Source: Olivibacter domesticus (GTDB lineage Bacteria; Bacteroidota; Bacteroidia; Sphingobacteriales; Sphingobacteriaceae). From it: 64,000 nucleotides of DNA. A program made the position numbers and the translations under genes. The stretch lies in NCBI RefSeq assembly GCF_900109575.1, contig NZ_FOAF01000008.1, positions 1 to 64,000 of the forward strand, in the 5' to 3' direction. Positions 7,531 through 43,842 of this stretch are shown in pieces; position 1 is the stretch's first letter, and each line of letters starts with the position of its first letter. Under the pieces are notes generated by a model. The model saw only the letters and a program-made list of their open reading frames with translations, was not told where the DNA came from and ran no database searches.

Positions 7531-9312
7531 TTAGTTCTCCCAACCTGGGTTTTGTCCGATATTCGGGTTTAATAAATAGTCTTCTTGTGGAATAGGATAT
7601 AAATAATGCTTTTCCTCCCAATGCCGGTTAATGTTATTCAGCCACGTCAATTCGCCAGATGTACTATTTTTTAACTGTTGTGGATTTACTCCTCCACTAA
7701 TGGTAGGACCTACGTTTACATAGGTAACACCAGGAATCCGTTGGGCTGGTTCCTGTTGAAAGAAGCAAACATCTAATATACCGTCCTCGTTAAGATCAAG
7801 TGGCGTATTTAGCGCAGGTACATAAAAGCCGTTCCATGGCAGATCCATCAGTTCTCCCTTGTGCCAACGTACAATATCATAAAAGCGAAAGCCCTCCAAC
7901 GCGAGTTCGATACCTCTTTCCCTACGTACTTCCAAAAGTATTGGATCGCTAGTTTCTTTAAAATAATTCTGTTGTAGATATGGATCTACCTGAGTAGGTA
8001 AGGAAGATGTGTTTCCCGTAATACCTGCGCGTCGGCGAAGCGCGCCAATTGTATTGTTCCAATCAGTGGCGCTAAGTACGCCAAGTTCTGTCTTGGCTTC
8101 CGCGTAATTTAACAACACTTCTGCATATCTAATTATACAGATAGAATTCGTATTGCGCGTGCCACCGTCATAAGATGTATTATCAACGGTCCATTTTATT
8201 GGTTGATATCCCGTATAGGTATAAGAAAATACAGGAGGAGCCGCTTCCGGTTTTCCGCCGTTTAGGCGTTTGTAATCACCCATACGGATAGTTTGCTGCA
8301 AGCGCTTATCCCGGCCCTTTACTTCCTCTGCAAAAGTCATCGTGGCATAGTTTGATTTATTTGTAAATGGCGTACCATCAATATTGAGGTACGTATTAAC
8401 GAACGTACGAGTAAAACTCAATCGAGCACCGTAAGTAGCACTCGTCCACCACCAGTTTGCATCGTTTAAAACATTTAAAGAAGCGTTCATTACTGCTGAT
8501 AACATTATTTCCTGCGCAACAGGGGCATCACTAGTAAACAGTTGTCGATAAGAAAGTTCTTCTCCACCAGCAGTATTTAAGCTAAACCGATTACCTTGGA
8601 TTACGACTTCAGCTGCATTAGCAGCCTCTTGGAGCCATTGATTGGCCGATCCACTAAGATTGTATGCCACATGATATTTTCTAAAGGTACCTTCAAATAA
8701 ACATACCCGTGATTTAAAGGCATAAGCAACGTCCTTCGTAATAAGACTTCTGGTAGCATCGTTTGTGGCCGTAATGTTTTGGCAAGCATAATTAATATCG
8801 GCTAAGATTGAATCCATTACTACGGTTCGATTATCGCGACCATTGAACAAATTAGGGTCATCAATAGTAAAGGGTTTGCTAATCCAAGGCACATCTCCAA
8901 AACGTTTAACTTTATCGAAATAAAACCACGCCCGGAAAAAACGAGCTAAGCCAATATAATTGTTTTTTACTTCTGTACTCAGTAATGGACTATTGCAATT
9001 TGCTATAAAAAAGTTCACATTACGCAAATCTTCCCAATCCCAGCCATCACTTTGTTGAGGGCCATAAGCGCCCACACGTAAAAAATCAGGTACCTGGCTG
9101 CGCGCGCCATAATCTGACATTTCGTCGCCACGATGAATATTATTTGCCGTGGGTAAAATATCATAAAAAGAGTTTGCATATAAGGCTAAGCCATTCTCAC
9201 TATTAAAAACAGCCTCGCCGGTTGCAGTATCTTCAGGCTGTTGATCTAATTTTTGGCAACTGGTGAAGATAATCATAAGTACTGCGAAAAACAGCCATTT
9301 AGTCGCTTTCAT
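7531..9312 (-). CDS. RagB/SusD family outer-membrane lipoprotein, locus 1
   Basis: A 593-residue SusD-like surface lipoprotein that caps its SusC partner and binds substrate. The N-terminus MKATKWLFFAVLMIIFTSCQ is a lipoprotein signal with the acylated Cys in the FTSC lipobox. The Met at 9312 gives this compact signal; an upstream Met at 9339 would add nine residues. SusD helical-repeat features include ARFFRAWFYFDKVKRFGDVPW and IIRYAEVLLNYAEAKTELG. The C-terminal RRERGIELALEGFRFYDIVRW segment is a SusD hallmark, and the end LYPIPQEDYLLNPNIGQNPG is typical. It starts within 40 bp of the SusC stop. Confidence 0.95.
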   Translation of the reverse strand: MKATKWLFFAVLMIIFTSCQKLDQQPEDTATGEAVFNSENGLALYANSFYDILPTANNIHRGDEMSDYGARSQVPDFLRVGAYGPQQSDGWDWEDLRNVNFFIANCNSPLLSTEVKNNYIGLARFFRAWFYFDKVKRFGDVPWISKPFTIDDPNLFNGRDNRTVVMDSILADINYACQNITATNDATRSLITKDVAYAFKSRVCLFEGTFRKYHVAYNLSGSANQWLQEAANAAEVVIQGNRFSLNTAGGEELSYRQLFTSDAPVAQEIMLSAVMNASLNVLNDANWWWTSATYGARLSFTRTFVNTYLNIDGTPFTNKSNYATMTFAEEVKGRDKRLQQTIRMGDYKRLNGGKPEAAPPVFSYTYTGYQPIKWTVDNTSYDGGTRNTNSICIIRYAEVLLNYAEAKTELGVLSATDWNNTIGALRRRAGITGNTSSLPTQVDPYLQQNYFKETSDPILLEVRRERGIELALEGFRFYDIVRWHKGELMDLPWNGFYVPALNTPLDLNEDGILDVCFFQQEPAQRIPGVTYVNVGPTISGGVNPQQLKNSTSGELTWLNNINRHWEEKHYLYPIPQEDYLLNPNIGQNPGWEN

Positions 9313-9350
9313 TTGATTTATATTTAAATGCTTTATCATAATTCTTTTGA

Positions 9351-12300
9351 TTAAAAAGTGGCCGATATACCAAAAGATATACTCTTTAACATAGGGTAAT
9401 TATTTCCGTTACCACTGTTGTTATTATTGGGGTCGGCTACAGCATCAGTAGGTGGATTGAGGAGCGTGTCCGAACGCCAAACATTTTCTACATCTAAATC
9501 TTTGGTGCGTTTATATAAAGGCGACCAAGTAAAAAGATTTTCACCCGAAACGAATATTCGTGTTGCACTCATTCCCAGCCGTTTAATCCAATTTTCTGGA
9601 AGCATATAACCCAGTTGTATATTTTTCATGCGGATATAAGCTACATTTTGTAGATAACGTGTTTGATTTTGCCGAAGTGTAGCTTGGTCATTCTGCGCAA
9701 TGTATCCTCTATAGCGTGGTAAATAGGCATTTGGATTATCCTCCGACCAAATTTCACCCAGTTGCCAAGTAGGAATCTTATTATACGGGCGATTGTATTG
9801 CCCCCAGAAAATGGCCGCTTCTCGTCCAGGATACCAATCTTGTTTTCCTACGCCCTGAAAAAAAACAGAAAACGAAAAACGATTCCAATCGGCTCCCAAA
9901 TTAATGCCATAAGTATATCTAGGCGTCGTATTACCAATGATAGACATATCGCCAGGATTTCCTACTGTTTCGGTCCCTTTATCTATTACACCATCTCCAT
10001 TAAGATCTGCAAACTTAATGTCGCCTGGAAGTGTTTGTCCACTGGTAGATGATTTATAAAGAATTTGTGTAGGAGAGCTGGCGATATCTTCGGCCGACGT
10101 ATAAAATCCAGCTGTAGTGAAACCCCAAATTTCGCCTAACTTCTGGCCAGCATAATAATCAGAGAGCCGTTTGTCAGGGTTATTATATTTAGTAACCTCC
10201 GCTTGGTAATCTGCTAAGTTTAACCGGATATTATAATGGAAAGGTTTGGCACCAAGGTCAAACTTGTCATTCCATTGAACAGAGACCTCCCATCCTTTTG
10301 TTTCCAGATCAGCATAATTGCCTTTCGGCACATCGGTGCCAAAAACAGCGGGTAAAGTCATGCCCACCGTAAACATATCGGTTGTTTTGCGTATATAGGC
10401 ATCTGCTACCAATGTTAGGCGATTAGCTAACATACTTACATCTAAACCTACGTTGGTTGTAGTAGAAGTTTCCCAGGTAAGACCATCTGGCAATACGCCT
10501 GGCTGGCCCGTTTGTTGCGGACGTACGCCGTTTAAAATCCTTTCTGATTGAGTAATCTTGTATCGCTCTTGAAAGGCATAAGACGCAATACTTCCGTTTC
10601 CTAGTGATCCATATGATGCCCTTAATTTCAATTCAGATATAAAGTTTGGCGAAACATTCCAAAAAGGTTCACTATTAATGCGCCAACCAGCAGAAATGGA
10701 AGGGAAAAAGGCGAAGCGCTGGTCTTCCGGAAATTTCGAGGATCCATCGTATCGCCCATTGGTTTCGATGAGATAACGGTCCTTATAAGCGTAATTTAAT
10801 CGATAAAATCCACCACGAATAGCCCATTTTTCTCTACCTCCTAAAGTAGTTATAGATTGCCCGAGGGCTAAGTTGATGTCTGTACCATCTTCAAAGATAA
10901 GTCCGTTACGGGTAGTGGTAAGGGATTTAAAGGTAGACTGCTCATTGTTAAAACCAACTAACGCTTTTACATAATGGCCGTTCGTTAATTTCGGCTCATA
11001 TTCAGCATAGACGTTCGTTGCAAGATAATCGGTAAGCCTATCCGTAAATTGCAGATCATTCGTATTGGTTCCTACATATTCAATTACCCCCGGAATCCGG
11101 CTATATGGCACTTGAACACGTCTTCTTTGCTCATCGTTATTGGTCTGTTGAAAAGTGAAGTCTGCATTTACACGAAGTTGATTGCTGAAAAAATTAGTGT
11201 TTACAGAACTGGTGTTTCGGAAAACCCTTCTATCCATATCGACACCATTTTTACCGTACCAAAAATCACCTACTGTATAAGCTGCAGAATAAGTAAGTGT
11301 TCCGTCTGGATTAAACATAGGTGCCATCGTGTGTCCCTCATCAGAAATATTACGCCAGATACTCCCGCCTTCGCCAACATTTAAAGGATTATGATATTTA
11401 ATACTTGAATAATCTGCATTATTGGCAAATCGCAGCCAAGGAAATACTTGTAAGGAACCTTTAGCACGGAGATTATAAGATTTATAATCATCAGAATTAT
11501 AGCGAAAAAGGCCGCTTTGATTGAACATTCGGCCGGAGACATAAAAATCAGATTTACCTTGGCTTCCGGAGATGGTGATGTTATGGTCGTTAGAATTGTT
11601 ATGGTCTTTATAAAGTTCCTTATACCAATCGGTATTGCCATAGTATACATATTCTCCCGCTTCATTTACGTCAACTTTTGGTAAACTTGGATCTGCTGCT
11701 CTACGCTGATACTCTGCCAAATATTCAGGAGAAAATTTAACAGTTTTATTAACGTTCTGCGGTGTTTGAGAATAATCGTTCCAAGCTGACCAAGAATCGT
11801 TAAACATTGTAGCGAACTGATAACCATCTGTAACAAAATCGGGCGATGCCACAGGACTTTTGATACCATGATTAAATGAATAAGTGACACTGGTTTTATC
11901 AGGATTCGGATTTTTAGTCGTAATTAATATAACACCAAAAGCTCCTCTGGCTCCGTAAATTGCTGCAGAAGAAGCGTCTTTCAATACAGAAACGGTGGCT
12001 ACGTCGTTCGGGTTAAGTCTACTAGGATCTCCTTCAACTCCGTCAATAAGCACCAGAGCGTTACCTCCTTGACCAATTGACGTTATACCTCGGACATTAT
12101 ACGAGGGCGACTGAATGGGTTTGCCGTCGAGCGGCACCAAATTCAAATTGGGTATAGTTCCCTGCAAGCCTTGGGTGAGATTAGGAATGGCCCTATTTTC
12201 AAGCACCTTGCTTGTTACCTGATCTACGGCTCCGGTAAGATTAACTTTCTTTTGTGTTCCATAGCCAACCACCACTACCTCGTCCAAGCCTTCGAATCCT

Positions 12301-12926
12301 TCTTTTAATGTAACTTCTAAGGTGCTTTTACCATTCAGTGGTATTTCTTGTGTAAGATAACCTGTGTAGGAAATTATCAGAATGGATTGTAGATCGATAT
12401 CTTTTAATTCGAAAATCCCATTATCATTGGTTACAGTAACCCGCTGTGTACCCTTCACTTTTATGGACGCTCTTGGCAGGGGAGTGCCAGTGGTATCCGT
12501 AATTTTTCCATTCACCGTATTCTGCTGCGCATGATCAAATGAATTTTTGTTTATTACCAATGGTTCCTTTTTCTTGATAACTACAGCATTGCCTTTGATG
12601 GTGTAAGTAAGTTGTTGATTTTGCAAAGCCAGCTGTAATACTTGAGAAATAGAGGCATCTTTCACGGAAAGATTAATAGGTTTAATTTGCTTTAAGAGCT
12701 TAGCATCATAGAAAAAATCAAAATTAGTTTGCTGATGAAGATTTGTCAAAAACTGCTCCACAGATAAATTTTTTGCCGAAAGGGTAATGTTTTGAGCATT
12801 CCCAGGCTTTGCATATCCTTGAAGGATACTGAGTAAAATCAGGAAACCTGTAATTTTCATGACCAAAAATGTTTGAAAATGAGGGATCGTCCAATCCCTT
12901 GATTTTAGGGCGTAGATTAATTGCAT
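9351..12926 (-). CDS. SusC/RagA TonB-dependent outer-membrane transporter with STN domain, locus 1
   Basis: A 1191-residue SusC-like transporter. In order it has an N-terminal signal region (to about 45), an STN secretin/TonB signalling domain (about 50-118) and a carboxypeptidase-regulatory-like domain (about 138-208). A TonB-box-like EVVVVGYG follows at 216-223, then the plug (containing VLIDGVEGDPSRLNPNDVA and IYGARGAFGVILITTK) and a 22-strand barrel ending in aromatic Phe. The STN domain implies signal relay to the FecR protein encoded upstream. The first Met gives a long leader as in many family entries; Met at 12860 would start directly at the signal peptide. It lies 113 bp after fecR, and this gap holds an opposite-strand terminator. 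Confidence 0.95.
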   Translation of the reverse strand: MQLIYALKSRDWTIPHFQTFLVMKITGFLILLSILQGYAKPGNAQNITLSAKNLSVEQFLTNLHQQTNFDFFYDAKLLKQIKPINLSVKDASISQVLQLALQNQQLTYTIKGNAVVIKKKEPLVINKNSFDHAQQNTVNGKITDTTGTPLPRASIKVKGTQRVTVTNDNGIFELKDIDLQSILIISYTGYLTQEIPLNGKSTLEVTLKEGFEGLDEVVVVGYGTQKKVNLTGAVDQVTSKVLENRAIPNLTQGLQGTIPNLNLVPLDGKPIQSPSYNVRGITSIGQGGNALVLIDGVEGDPSRLNPNDVATVSVLKDASSAAIYGARGAFGVILITTKNPNPDKTSVTYSFNHGIKSPVASPDFVTDGYQFATMFNDSWSAWNDYSQTPQNVNKTVKFSPEYLAEYQRRAADPSLPKVDVNEAGEYVYYGNTDWYKELYKDHNNSNDHNITISGSQGKSDFYVSGRMFNQSGLFRYNSDDYKSYNLRAKGSLQVFPWLRFANNADYSSIKYHNPLNVGEGGSIWRNISDEGHTMAPMFNPDGTLTYSAAYTVGDFWYGKNGVDMDRRVFRNTSSVNTNFFSNQLRVNADFTFQQTNNDEQRRRVQVPYSRIPGVIEYVGTNTNDLQFTDRLTDYLATNVYAEYEPKLTNGHYVKALVGFNNEQSTFKSLTTTRNGLIFEDGTDINLALGQSITTLGGREKWAIRGGFYRLNYAYKDRYLIETNGRYDGSSKFPEDQRFAFFPSISAGWRINSEPFWNVSPNFISELKLRASYGSLGNGSIASYAFQERYKITQSERILNGVRPQQTGQPGVLPDGLTWETSTTTNVGLDVSMLANRLTLVADAYIRKTTDMFTVGMTLPAVFGTDVPKGNYADLETKGWEVSVQWNDKFDLGAKPFHYNIRLNLADYQAEVTKYNNPDKRLSDYYAGQKLGEIWGFTTAGFYTSAEDIASSPTQILYKSSTSGQTLPGDIKFADLNGDGVIDKGTETVGNPGDMSIIGNTTPRYTYGINLGADWNRFSFSVFFQGVGKQDWYPGREAAIFWGQYNRPYNKIPTWQLGEIWSEDNPNAYLPRYRGYIAQNDQATLRQNQTRYLQNVAYIRMKNIQLGYMLPENWIKRLGMSATRIFVSGENLFTWSPLYKRTKDLDVENVWRSDTLLNPPTDAVADPNNNNSGNGNNYPMLKSISFGISATF

Positions 12927-12939
12927 ATATTTGTCTAAA

Positions 12940-13022
12940 TGGATATTGAAAAAATGAGTGCTATTCTTTTTTTGATTTCTAAATTCATAACCAGGGGCGC
13001 GGTAACGCTTCTGGTTTTTTTT
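12940..13022 (+). ncRNA. Candidate antisense RNA in the fecR-susC gap of locus 1
   Basis: On the strand opposite to the operon, AACCAGGGGCG (12989-12999) pairs with CGCTTCTGGTT (13006-13016). The stem is 11 bp with a 6-nt loop, followed by T8 (13015-13022). Two of the pairs are G-U in the plus-strand RNA and would be A-C mismatches in the minus-strand RNA, so the plus strand is the functional one. A TATATTTG at 12926-12933 fits the -7 element, giving an RNA of about 83 nt antisense to the susC leader. No good -33 is seen. DonS-type antisense RNAs of Bacteroides have this position; homology is inferred only from layout. Confidence 0.6.
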
Positions 13023-13039
13023 GGATAGCCTGTCTATTG

Positions 13040-14176
13040 TTAGGGCATAACCATTACCCTCCTTCCCTCAACCTTAAAGTGTACGTTGTCTGTTAGTTCC
13101 ATAATGCTTAAGATGCTTGAAATATAATTGTTGCTGGAAATCATTCCACCAAATGTTTGATATTTATTAGCTTTCGGATGATATATTACCTCTATATTAT
13201 ACCATCTTTGTAATTTTCGCATAATACTGTTAAGCGGCTCATCTTTAAAATAGAAGTAACCTTCTTTCCACGAAAGAGCTTCCTTCATATCTGCAGCAAC
13301 TACTCGAATTGGTGCTGAAGAATGAGTGACTGCCTGTAAACCAGGTTTGAGTTGTTTGCTTATATTTCTATTATCAACACGTACGGATCCTTCAACCAAC
13401 GTTGTTTTTGTATTTTCCTCGTCGAGGTAAGCCATAATATTAAAAGCTGTCCCTAAAACTTCTATGTTGGTACCTTTAGCCTTTACAATGAAGGGTAACG
13501 ATTTATTTTGCGCTACTTCAAAATAGGCTTCACCCTCAAGTTCTACGACTCTTTGATTACCAGTAAAACTACTTGGAAAAGAAAGTCTACTGGAAGCATT
13601 TAACCATACCTTGGTACCGTCAGCTAATGTTAGCATATACTTACCGCCTGGCGGAGTAATAAGTTGATTTTGGCGGCTAGAGAGATTTTTTTTATTTAAT
13701 TCTACCGTCTTAAAGTTTAAACTGCCATCTATTGTTTTAATAACTTGAACCTTATTTTGCAAAGCAAGCAAGCCGTTCTTCTTTTCATCAAGTATAATTG
13801 TTTTACCGCCACCTAATATTAATTGCGCACGTTTACTGCCGGGTGGTACATCATGCGGAGCAGTGGCAACTTTTTCAGGGAGAACCTGTTGTTTTTGATG
13901 ATGATAGTAAATAGCAAAAACAGAAGAAATTACTATCAATATAGAAGCAGCGGCATGCCAATGGGTGAATTTTTTCTTTACTACTGAGGGTTCTTGCTGA
14001 ATGGTTTGCATGAGTTTTTCATACATTTCATTTTTGGTGCCCAGATCTTTTTCATTTACCTTATTCGGCAGCGCATCGAATAATTCATAATATCGATTGA
14101 TAAAATCCTCCTCCGTTTTGGATGCTTTACCTTCGTTGTATTTTTTTAATAATGTTAGAAGCGTTTTGCGGGTCAT
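13040..14176 (-). CDS. FecR family anti-sigma factor, locus 1
   Basis: A 378-residue inner-membrane anti-sigma factor. The N-terminal cytoplasmic part (1-70) should hold the sigma factor. One membrane helix lies at about 73-92 (ASILIVISSVFAIYY). The periplasmic FecR domain contains the core PPGGKYMLTLADGTKVWLNA, then GEAYFEVA and VLGTAFNIMAY. A C-terminal DUF4974 domain includes YFKDEPLNSIMRKLQRWYNI. The frame stays open to 14275, but that start would overlap the sigma gene. Met at 14176 leaves a 74-bp gap and gives the usual family N-terminus. It should receive the signal from the STN domain of the SusC protein encoded next. Confidence 0.93.
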   Translation of the reverse strand: MTRKTLLTLLKKYNEGKASKTEEDFINRYYELFDALPNKVNEKDLGTKNEMYEKLMQTIQQEPSVVKKKFTHWHAAASILIVISSVFAIYYHHQKQQVLPEKVATAPHDVPPGSKRAQLILGGGKTIILDEKKNGLLALQNKVQVIKTIDGSLNFKTVELNKKNLSSRQNQLITPPGGKYMLTLADGTKVWLNASSRLSFPSSFTGNQRVVELEGEAYFEVAQNKSLPFIVKAKGTNIEVLGTAFNIMAYLDEENTKTTLVEGSVRVDNRNISKQLKPGLQAVTHSSAPIRVVAADMKEALSWKEGYFYFKDEPLNSIMRKLQRWYNIEVIYHPKANKYQTFGGMISSNNYISSILSIMELTDNVHFKVEGRRVMVMP

Positions 14177-14250
14177 ATAAATTATTACTGCATTTATGAT
14201 ATGATCCGCGAAACAGAAAAACTCCCATGAAAAAGATTTTTTTTTAAATG

Positions 14251-14832
14251 TTATTTGTAAGCAATTAAAAAACAATATAAAATGATTAGCAGTAAAGTTT
14301 CTTTCAATTTATGACGACAGTAAGCAAGTTGATTTTGAACTGTTTTACGGGATATATGTAATTGCTTAGCTATAATGTCGGTGGATAGGTCTTCTAAGTA
14401 TCGAAGACGGTAAATGTTTTGCTGGGAAGGGGTTAGTTCTCTAAGGAGTTTTTTATAGGCCGCCATAAATTCTTTCTCCCGTATTCTACCATCTGTTTTA
14501 TCTCCACTTGTTCTGAATTGATCTAGTAACACCGGTATGGAGCAATATTTGTTTTCTTTTTCCATTAACTTAATTACTTGATTTCGAGTACAGACATATA
14601 AGTAGGCTTGGAGATTTTCGACTTTTAGGTGTTCCCGCTGTTGCCAAAGCTTTAAGAAAATATCTTGCGTGGTGTCTTTGGCAAGCGAGATGTCCTGCAG
14701 CCTTTTATAAGCAAGATTGTAGATATAAGCCCAATATTTATCATATAAGGTATTAAAAGCACTAATAGAACCTATACTAAGTTCGTGAAGAAGACGTAGG
14801 TCTTCCTCTGGATGGTTGACAGTTTTTATCAT
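14251..14832 (-). CDS. ECF-type RNA polymerase sigma-70 factor, locus 1
   Basis: A 193-residue extracytoplasmic-function sigma factor. Region 2 spans about 20-90 (FNTLYDKYWAYIYNLAYKRL, then DTTQDIFLKLWQQRE). Region 4 spans about 125-180, with LTPSQQNIYRLRYLEDLST and the helix-turn-helix IAKQLHISRKTVQNQLAYC. The hydrophobic C-terminal tail is common in Bacteroidota sigma factors of this group. It is the first gene of locus 1 and lies directly upstream of its fecR, the standard order. The first Met falls 18 residues before the start of the region 2 homology. Confidence 0.94.
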   Translation of the reverse strand: MIKTVNHPEEDLRLLHELSIGSISAFNTLYDKYWAYIYNLAYKRLQDISLAKDTTQDIFLKLWQQREHLKVENLQAYLYVCTRNQVIKLMEKENKYCSIPVLLDQFRTSGDKTDGRIREKEFMAAYKKLLRELTPSQQNIYRLRYLEDLSTDIIAKQLHISRKTVQNQLAYCRHKLKETLLLIILYCFLIAYK

Positions 14833-25401: not shown

Positions 25402-25623
25402 GATGAAGACTTGTTTAGATGATTTTAAAAAATGCAAAGCATTTCCATTAACCAATAAATGTGTTTTACTGATTTCACTTTTTAATGTAGATGAACCTAA
25501 ATTTTAGAGGTCAAAAGCTGGTTTAACAGCGGAGAATAATGAATGTTTTTTGTGGCTTCATAGTAATGGGTTTGATATTTATATTATTGTCGATTATATT
25601 TTCTATAACAATAAAAAGTCTTT

Positions 25624-25648
25624 ACATGCGATTGAGCACATGTTTTTT
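25624..25648 (+). terminator. Weak opposite-strand terminator candidate in the fecR-susC gap of locus 2
   Basis: ACATG (25624-25628) pairs with CATGT (25639-25643), followed by a run of T ending at 25648. It is on the strand opposite to the operon, in the same gap where loci 1 and 3 have much stronger structures. No TAnnTTTG element was found at a matching distance. Confidence 0.3.
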
Positions 25649-25674
25649 CGTTAAAAATCCTGCTATAAAGCGAT

Positions 25675-26628
25675 TTATTTACGATATATTGATTTAGGTA
25701 GCAATAAGAATTGATCGTCCTTTCTCATAACATTTAAATCATATAATAATGCAATATTCGATATCATTTCTTTATGACTGACATTGAGGGGTAGAGAGCC
25801 TGAAGCATCCCTTTCTAACAATTTACTGTCTGTCACTTTCAGTCTTAACCCGTAAGTTTCTGATAATGTGGATAACACATATGAAAGTGTACCATGATTT
25901 AATACGAGCTTATACTGCTGCCAAATAAAAAAATCATCAATTGGTGCATTGTCTTTAAGTCTATACCCTGTACTGTTTTCCGTTAAAGAGAGGTACTGCC
26001 CAGGATGGATGAGTATTTGATGTTTACCTTTTTTGCTGTTATATCGAAAATTGATTTTTCCATTGCGGAGGGCTACCAGCGTCTCTACCGTTCTATTTCG
26101 TACATTAAATTCGGTACCTAATACATCAATATAGGTACTGTCGGATACATGTACCCTAAAAGGTTGATTGTTTTGTCGGTGTACGACCTGAAAAGTCCCT
26201 TCTCCCTTGATCCAAACTTCCCGTTCTGATGAAAAGCTATATTTATGATAAACCAAACTAGAGTTACCGTTTAGTTTAACAAGGGAGCCATCTGGCAATT
26301 TTAACTGTTTTATTTGACCAAACGCAGTTTTATAGGTTAATTTTTTAGGTGCAGATAATAATACAACTATGCTGGTGAATACCAATATAATAGAAGCTGC
26401 ATATAACACAGGCTTCCACCGGAACTTTAAAGAAAATGATGTAGCAGGTTGATAAGATATGTTGGATTTTGTCTTGATCGCTGACAGCATGTTACTGCGA
26501 AGATTGCGTCTAGTTTGCGGCCTTAGTTCTTCCGTATAACTATGCAGCTCATCCACTTCATTATACCATTTTTCGAAGCGTTCGTTAAGAGCTCTTTCCT
26601 CTTCCTTATGTTGATTGTATGGATCCAT
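25675..26628 (-). CDS. FecR family anti-sigma factor, locus 2
   Basis: A 317-residue FecR-like protein. The charged cytoplasmic N-terminus (1-70) precedes one membrane helix at about 73-93 (VLYAASIILVFTSIVVLLS). The periplasmic FecR domain contains LKLPDGSLVKLNGNSSLVYH, GEGTFQVVHRQNNQPFRVHV and VLGTEFNVRN. A short DUF4974-like end includes LNHGTLSYVLSTLSETYGL. It lacks the long insert seen in the FecR proteins of loci 1 and 3 and is about 60-80 residues shorter. It lies 56 bp after its sigma gene and should control it in response to the locus 2 SusC protein. Confidence 0.92.
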   Translation of the reverse strand: MDPYNQHKEEERALNERFEKWYNEVDELHSYTEELRPQTRRNLRSNMLSAIKTKSNISYQPATSFSLKFRWKPVLYAASIILVFTSIVVLLSAPKKLTYKTAFGQIKQLKLPDGSLVKLNGNSSLVYHKYSFSSEREVWIKGEGTFQVVHRQNNQPFRVHVSDSTYIDVLGTEFNVRNRTVETLVALRNGKINFRYNSKKGKHQILIHPGQYLSLTENSTGYRLKDNAPIDDFFIWQQYKLVLNHGTLSYVLSTLSETYGLRLKVTDSKLLERDASGSLPLNVSHKEMISNIALLYDLNVMRKDDQFLLLPKSIYRK

Positions 26629-43746: not shown

Positions 43747-43760
43747 TACTTTTGTTTGTT

Positions 43761-43842
43761 TGGGTTAAATAAAATATTGATTCATCGATGTGGAAAAATC
43801 CAAGCATATGCCGGGGAGTGCTGGTACCACTCTTCGGTTTTT
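43761..43842 (+). ncRNA. Candidate antisense RNA in the fecR-susC gap of locus 3
   Basis: On the strand opposite to the operon, CCGGGGAGTG (43811-43820) pairs with CACTCTTCGG (43828-43837), followed by T5. Two pairs are G-U in the plus-strand RNA and A-C mismatches on the other strand. TACTTTTG at 43747-43754 fits the -7 element and lies directly against the susC start codon, as in locus 1. The predicted RNA is about 82 nt, matching 83 nt at locus 1. No -33 at the right spacing is visible. Confidence 0.58.

Follow-up and report, generated by a model that had tools for sequence, protein, structure and literature searches.

Organization of locus 1 and its fecR-susC gap

Locus 1 occupies the minus strand of the window, by which we mean the whole 64-kb stretch of DNA that was analysed, and encodes an ECF sigma factor, a FecR anti-sigma factor, a SusC transporter and SusD, with a predicted antisense RNA gene on the plus strand of the gap between fecR and susC. 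The features are listed below with the basis for each in brackets.

7531-9339, minus strand: susD, downstream of susC in the same operon (Pfam)
9351-12926, minus strand: susC, a TonB-dependent transporter with an STN domain and the presumed antisense target (Pfam: STN, Plug)
12926-12933, plus strand: TATATTTG, -7 box TAnnTTTG of the predicted antisense promoter (sequence; the position recurs in other gaps)
12939-13022, plus strand: predicted antisense RNA to the susC leader, about 83-85 nt long (box and terminator; fold)
12940-12981, plus strand: P1, predicted 5' helix of the antisense RNA (MFE fold; cognate pairing ranks at 5% of partners)
12989-13022, plus strand: intrinsic terminator, 11-bp stem with T8 (sequence search)
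13040-13066, minus strand: fecR end with the Shine-Dalgarno-like GGAAGGAGGG (13057-13066) and a mini-ORF, ATG CCC TAA (13040-13048) (sequence)
13040-14275, minus strand: fecR, anti-sigma factor, stop end at 13040 (Pfam: FecR, FecR_C)
14251-14832, minus strand: ECF sigma factor (Pfam: Sigma70)

The gap spans 12927-13039 (113 bp) if susC is assumed to start at its first in-frame ATG (complement CAT, 12924-12926); a second methionine lies 22 codons downstream of this assumed start. A sense ECF promoter of susC was not located. The antisense unit (12926-13022) lies opposite susC, between the anti-sigma gene and susC, which is reportedly where the RNA was placed in the original DonS work. The nearest relatives of the locus 1 SusC are found in Mucilaginibacter and Pedobacter, and the ribosomal protein S7 of the host genome is of the Bacteroidia type, in agreement with an earlier note on this DNA that had placed the locus outside Bacteroides.

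A predicted antisense promoter on the susC start codon

TAnnTTTG is a housekeeping (primary-sigma) promoter type (PMC7366714), and at locus 1 the first T of TATATTTG doubles as the final base of the CAT opposite the susC ATG. The earlier note had reported such a box at the start codon and an RNA of about 83 nt; we find the box at 12926-12933 and, taking the RNA start at 5-7 nt after it, predict a product of about 83-85 nt. Across the class the box is locked in this position: 93 of 224 fecR-susC gaps (42%) have an antisense TAnnTTTG at the start codon, compared to 3 of 772 other ORFs (0.4%), and the sense orientation never occurs in the gaps surveyed. The rarity of the box at those 772 other ORF starts disfavours the idea that it is mere translation context, as does the shift of the CAAA-to-ATG distance in the -5, -1 and 0 classes, in which TAnnTTTG stays intact. 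No -33 element was visible in the box-aligned profile.

The terminator and the strand under selection

The terminator consists of AACCAGGGGCG (12989-12999), a CGGTAA loop (13000-13005) and CGCTTCTGGTT (13006-13016), with T8 at 13015-13022; the first two T of this tract are also paired, so six T follow the stem. Two of the pairs, 12995·13010 and 12996·13009, are G·U in the plus RNA and A·C on the minus strand. The 11-bp stem with its T8 and both G·U pairs is thus exactly where the earlier note had seen it, within the fecR-susC gap, and the selection on the plus RNA that the note argued from these two pairs holds class-wide. In a hairpin search that is blind to strand, with G·U and A·C counted alike, the antisense-strand hairpins of the fecR-susC gaps contain 101 G·U compared to 8 A·C pairs, 88 stems fold more strongly as antisense RNA and 6 as sense RNA, and T occupies 5.5 of the 8 bases after the antisense stem compared to 2.0. 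A comparable strand bias, if slightly weaker, is seen at ordinary gene-end terminators, so the bias tells us which strand is transcribed and says only weakly that the sense leader must stay open. A role of the G·U pairs as a device that keeps the sense leader open, beyond what ordinary terminators show, was considered and is only weakly supported (p = 0.09 for the counts and p = 0.008 for the energy difference).

The earlier note had also looked to the conservation of the stem in related genomes. The stem sequence is not kept in the orthologues of locus 1: in those of Pedobacter and Mucilaginibacter another stem has taken its place, which leaves no basis for judging covariation of the stem between direct orthologues. 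When six sequences of one orthologous group were aligned with MAFFT, the terminator arms were misaligned, and no pair counts were taken from the alignment.

A covarying 5' helix

The locus 1 plus RNA has a predicted folding energy of -25.2 kcal/mol (z -4.4 relative to shuffles at -13.2), whereas the same stretch read as the susC leader (minus copy) folds at only -13.2 kcal/mol. Within the 83 nt lies P1, a helix absent from the earlier note's description. The predicted RNAs often begin with GTTTGGGTTAA or TTAGGTT, and these 5' ends are complementary to the stretch before the terminator; the two arms vary together, GTTTGG occurring for example with CCAAAC and TTAGGTT with GACCTAA. In 74 units the pairing of each arm with its own partner averages -10.0 kcal/mol, compared to -6.8 (sd 0.27) when partners are permuted among units (z -12), and while related units are not independent, related partners make this test conservative. 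The same test gave z -4.7 for the sense copies and -1.1 and -0.1 for susC or fecR coding windows, and P1 is stronger as antisense in 69 units and as sense in 2. The cognate P1 falls within the best tenth of partners in 60% of the units of this genome, in 75% of those of Chitinophaga (n = 4), in 100% of those of Massilibacteroides (n = 6) and in 2 of 5 Bacteroides units; that of locus 1 is weaker (-8.5) and lies in the top 5% of partners. We take the covariation of P1 as evidence, drawn from comparison of sequences, that an RNA is made from the antisense strand and that its fold matters.

In the Pedobacter orthologues of locus 1 (L085 and L089) the antisense RNA includes an additional hairpin whose loop carries the motif GGGTCTCAAGC; the motif also occurs at a locus of the host genome (L044).

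Recurrence in the window, the genome and the class

In the 64-kb window, a strong terminator preceded by TAnnTTTG at a distance of 40-130 nt is found at two plus-strand sites, both of them fecR-susC gaps, and once, in weaker form, on the minus strand. The second plus-strand unit belongs to the third uptake locus of the window:

43747-43754, plus strand: TACTTTTG, -7 box of the second unit, immediately following the susC CAT (start 43746) (sequence search)
43758-43842, plus strand: second predicted antisense RNA of the window, between fecR and susC of the third uptake locus (sequence search)
43758-43766/43797-43805, plus strand: P1 of the second unit, GTTTGGGTT/AATCCAAGC (P1 pairing test)
43810-43838 and the T-tract, plus strand: terminator of the second unit (sequence search)

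This unit (43747-43842) shares with locus 1 the central G·U pairs and the GGTA in the loop. At the second uptake locus (25402-25675), FecR lacks FecR_C and SusC lacks STN; inspection of its gap by eye showed no antisense unit, which fits the linkage to STN described below.

Among 45 analysable fecR-susC pairs of the host genome, an antisense terminator is present in 27 and a sense terminator in none; the strict box on the start codon is present in 23, and box and terminator together in 18. At least one part of the signature is found in 32 of the 41 STN-type pairs, and we estimate about 30 units in the genome in all. Over the genomes outside the outgroup, 111 of 201 fecR-susC gaps contain an antisense terminator and 4 a sense terminator (108 of 174 antisense when gaps of at least 85 bp are considered), compared to 29 antisense and 44 sense terminators at 772 other ORFs. 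The terminator starts at a median of 71 nt from the ATG (IQR 63-84), and the predicted RNA has a median length of 90 nt (10-90% range 78-114).

The signature follows the STN domain, being present in 138 of 198 STN SusC genes compared to 2 of 20 without STN (p = 2e-7), so that about 30% of STN-type loci are without it by the criteria used. None of 16 SusC genes without a fecR neighbour (among 30 SusC genes of the host genome retrieved by family) has an antisense terminator. Units are found in Sphingobacteriaceae, Chitinophaga, Terrimonas, Dyadobacter, Runella, Algoriphagus, Massilibacteroides, Tannerella and Bacteroides, and also in a family (f4), one of whose members, G150, nearly matches Flavobacterium johnsoniae in its S7 protein; in Flavobacteriaceae-type genomes the unit is present in 5 of 23 fecR-susC gaps. 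The deep-branching outgroup family f21 has no antisense terminator in 23 gaps (Fisher 7e-8). Its S7 protein is not Bacteroidia-like and is not close to that of F. johnsoniae, which rules out that f21 represents the Flavobacteriaceae.

Relation to known antisense RNAs

The DonS family comprises PUL cis-antisense RNAs of Bacteroides fragilis (Cao et al., 2016, J Bacteriol 198:2410), which are described in PMC7366714 and PMC9723704; they are 78-128 nt long, antisense to susC and repress it (PMC7366714). The likeness that the earlier note had drawn to RNAs which are antisense to susC and repress it is well founded, as the position, orientation and length of the locus 1 unit match the published description: it is antisense to the susC leader, its predicted length falls within 78-128 nt (PMC7366714) and it has a predicted TAnnTTTG promoter. 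The layout of locus 1 was also found, identical, in two genomes of Bacteroides, the genus of DonS, both from species other than that of DonS. The locus 1 unit differs from DonS in that it belongs to another order of the class, has about 30 counterparts per genome and is apparently unrelated in primary sequence.

Bacteroides thetaiotaomicron possesses 32 PUL-associated antisense RNAs that are likewise antisense to susC homologues, several of them verified by northern blot, but these are known from transcriptomes of one gut species (PMC10994844). The FopS/GibS RNAs of the same species resemble the predicted unit in being short and ending in a terminator, and they block susC translation beside the start codon, but they act in trans through a shared R1 seed and are bound by the RRM protein RbpB (PMC11697453). 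No match to RRM_1, the family of Bacteroides RbpB, was found in the host genome, whereas a Bacteroides control genome has one, so any protein partner would differ from that of Bacteroides. Rfam gave nothing at 12850-13150 up to E = 5 beyond chance-level matches, and no FopS/GibS-type match in the window. In another order of Bacteroidia, antisense RNAs are listed for Flavobacterium psychrophilum, with no PUL class named in the available part of that source (PMC9723704); beyond this general list, the searchable literature, which took in little of the subscription journals, does not describe PUL antisense RNAs outside Bacteroides. The kind of RNA is already known from DonS and the Bacteroides PUL antisense RNAs, and what may be added here, with priority uncertain, is its class-wide spread, P1, the embedding of the promoter in the start codon and the linkage to STN.

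Alternative explanations

A terminator placed here does protect fecR, and it could serve purely as an insulator that keeps stray antisense transcription from susC out of fecR and the sigma gene, the short RNA having no role of its own; the authors of work on B. thetaiotaomicron warn that much antisense transcription is noise (PMC7366714). An insulator would need neither a promoter locked to the start codon nor a covarying 5' helix, and such terminators are missing from SusC genes without fecR, so that we regard this explanation as distinctly unlikely. We give even less weight to a structured element acting in the susC mRNA leader (an attenuator, riboswitch or processing site) with the antisense features as by-products. 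Each hairpin is necessarily mirrored in the sense strand, and the sense copies of P1 do keep some pairing, but the G·U to A·C ratio, the T-tracts and the energies all favour the antisense strand, on which the locus 1 sequence also folds far better than as sense leader; this makes a leader element very improbable.

Action mainly in trans deserves somewhat closer attention. The predicted RNAs of one genome share similar, GTTTGGGTTAA-like 5' ends, so cross-pairing with other susC leaders is possible, and the roughly 30 paralogues could form a network like that of FopS, whose RNAs act on susC start regions (PMC11697453). GTTTGG, TTAGGTT and GGGTT(T/A) motifs are indeed enriched at the 5' end (33% compared to 4% of other ORFs), yet P1 ties up this shared end with a partner that changes along with it, complementarity in cis is perfect by construction and no FopS-like match was returned by Rfam, and we consider trans action as the main mode unlikely, if by no means negligible. 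The RNA could finally be the mRNA of a small membrane peptide, as a 29-codon open frame (MDIEKMSAILFLISKFITRGAVTLLVFFG) begins at 12939. We reject this reading and give it practically no credence: the stop of the ORF lies beyond the terminator, relatives have no counterpart of it, and across 74 antisense RNAs the closed ORFs (3.2 codons) fall short of those in shuffles (5.4 codons).

Proposed mechanism

STN-type transporters signal via FecR to an ECF sigma factor, which activates the operon. Our data suggest that locus 1 very likely contains a cis-antisense small-RNA gene of the DonS kind that would silence susC until the ECF sigma factor is active. At the level of sequence, the promoter and terminator signatures, the selection on the antisense strand, the covarying P1, the recurrence and the STN linkage are all apparent, and from them we infer transcription, repression and the following order of events. 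Housekeeping RNA polymerase would start at the TAnnTTTG over the susC start codon, read away from susC through the leader and stop at the terminator before fecR, yielding a product of about 85 nt composed of P1 and the terminator hairpin. Its complementarity to the susC leader would be complete, beginning about 12 nt upstream of the start codon and reaching almost to fecR; as the RNA covers the leader and ends before fecR, it could act on susC and leave the regulator genes untouched.

As long as FecR holds the cognate ECF sigma factor, susC message that arises from leaky or read-through transcription would be silenced by the antisense RNA and by the act of transcribing it, either because the site where ribosomes land is covered, because polymerases collide, or both. 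Once substrate frees the sigma factor, strong sense transcription would overrun the antisense promoter and lift the block; both the repression, by base-pairing or by colliding polymerases, and its lifting are proposed here by analogy with DonS. In B. thetaiotaomicron some antisense/PUL pairs correlate positively and others negatively (PMC10994844), so repression need not be general. Given its recurrence at the majority of uptake loci of this type in the host genome and throughout the class, the unit probably serves Bacteroidia as a general off-switch.

A mini-ORF in the sense leader

The Shine-Dalgarno-like sequence and mini-ORF at the end of fecR may be a further part of the susC leader and not of the antisense RNA. 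Such a mini-ORF occurs in the fecR-susC gaps of many genomes, placed either within the sense leader or right where fecR ends. In the stretch from the fecR end to the antisense terminator, AAGGAGG occurs 26 times compared to 1.0 expected and GCCTATG 17 times compared to 0.3, and they precede ATGs that open very short frames, mostly of 1-9 codons and often ATG-NNN-stop. Outside the fecR frame, a stop follows within three codons for 11 of 16 Shine-Dalgarno-preceded ATGs (p = 3e-4) and 19 of 38 GCCT-type ATGs (p = 0.0015), compared to 24% of other ATGs. Over the final 15 codons of fecR, in this genome and its family, 57% of arginine codons are AGG compared to 15.5% elsewhere in the gene (p = 4e-18), an in-frame signal that may come partly from the conserved FecR C-terminus (GRRxxVM). 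In Sphingobacteriaceae the Shine-Dalgarno sequence is perfect and the mini-ORF signal strong. Ribosomes of this class normally ignore Shine-Dalgarno sequences, and those without bS21 regain their use (PMC9976891). The co-occurrence of mini-ORF and antisense unit is no more than suggestive (p = 0.08).

These observations raise the tentative possibility, which we hold to be somewhat doubtful, of a class-wide leader architecture at sigma-regulated SusC genes, in which a start-codon-embedded antisense promoter and a two-part antisense RNA would face an opposing ORF of 1-9 codons (behind a Shine-Dalgarno sequence in Sphingobacteriaceae), with ribosomes, perhaps those without bS21, and the antisense RNA competing for the leader. 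If true, this competition would link nutrient uptake to the state of the ribosome.

Implications

PUL antisense RNAs have been described as a trait of Bacteroides. The evidence gathered here suggests instead that antisense units belong to the standard control of SusC genes regulated by ECF and anti-sigma factors throughout Bacteroidia, including soil and aquatic lineages, and the box, P1 and terminator together provide a precise anatomy by which such RNAs can be annotated. The unit would also offer a reason why susC promoters stay silent when no substrate is present.
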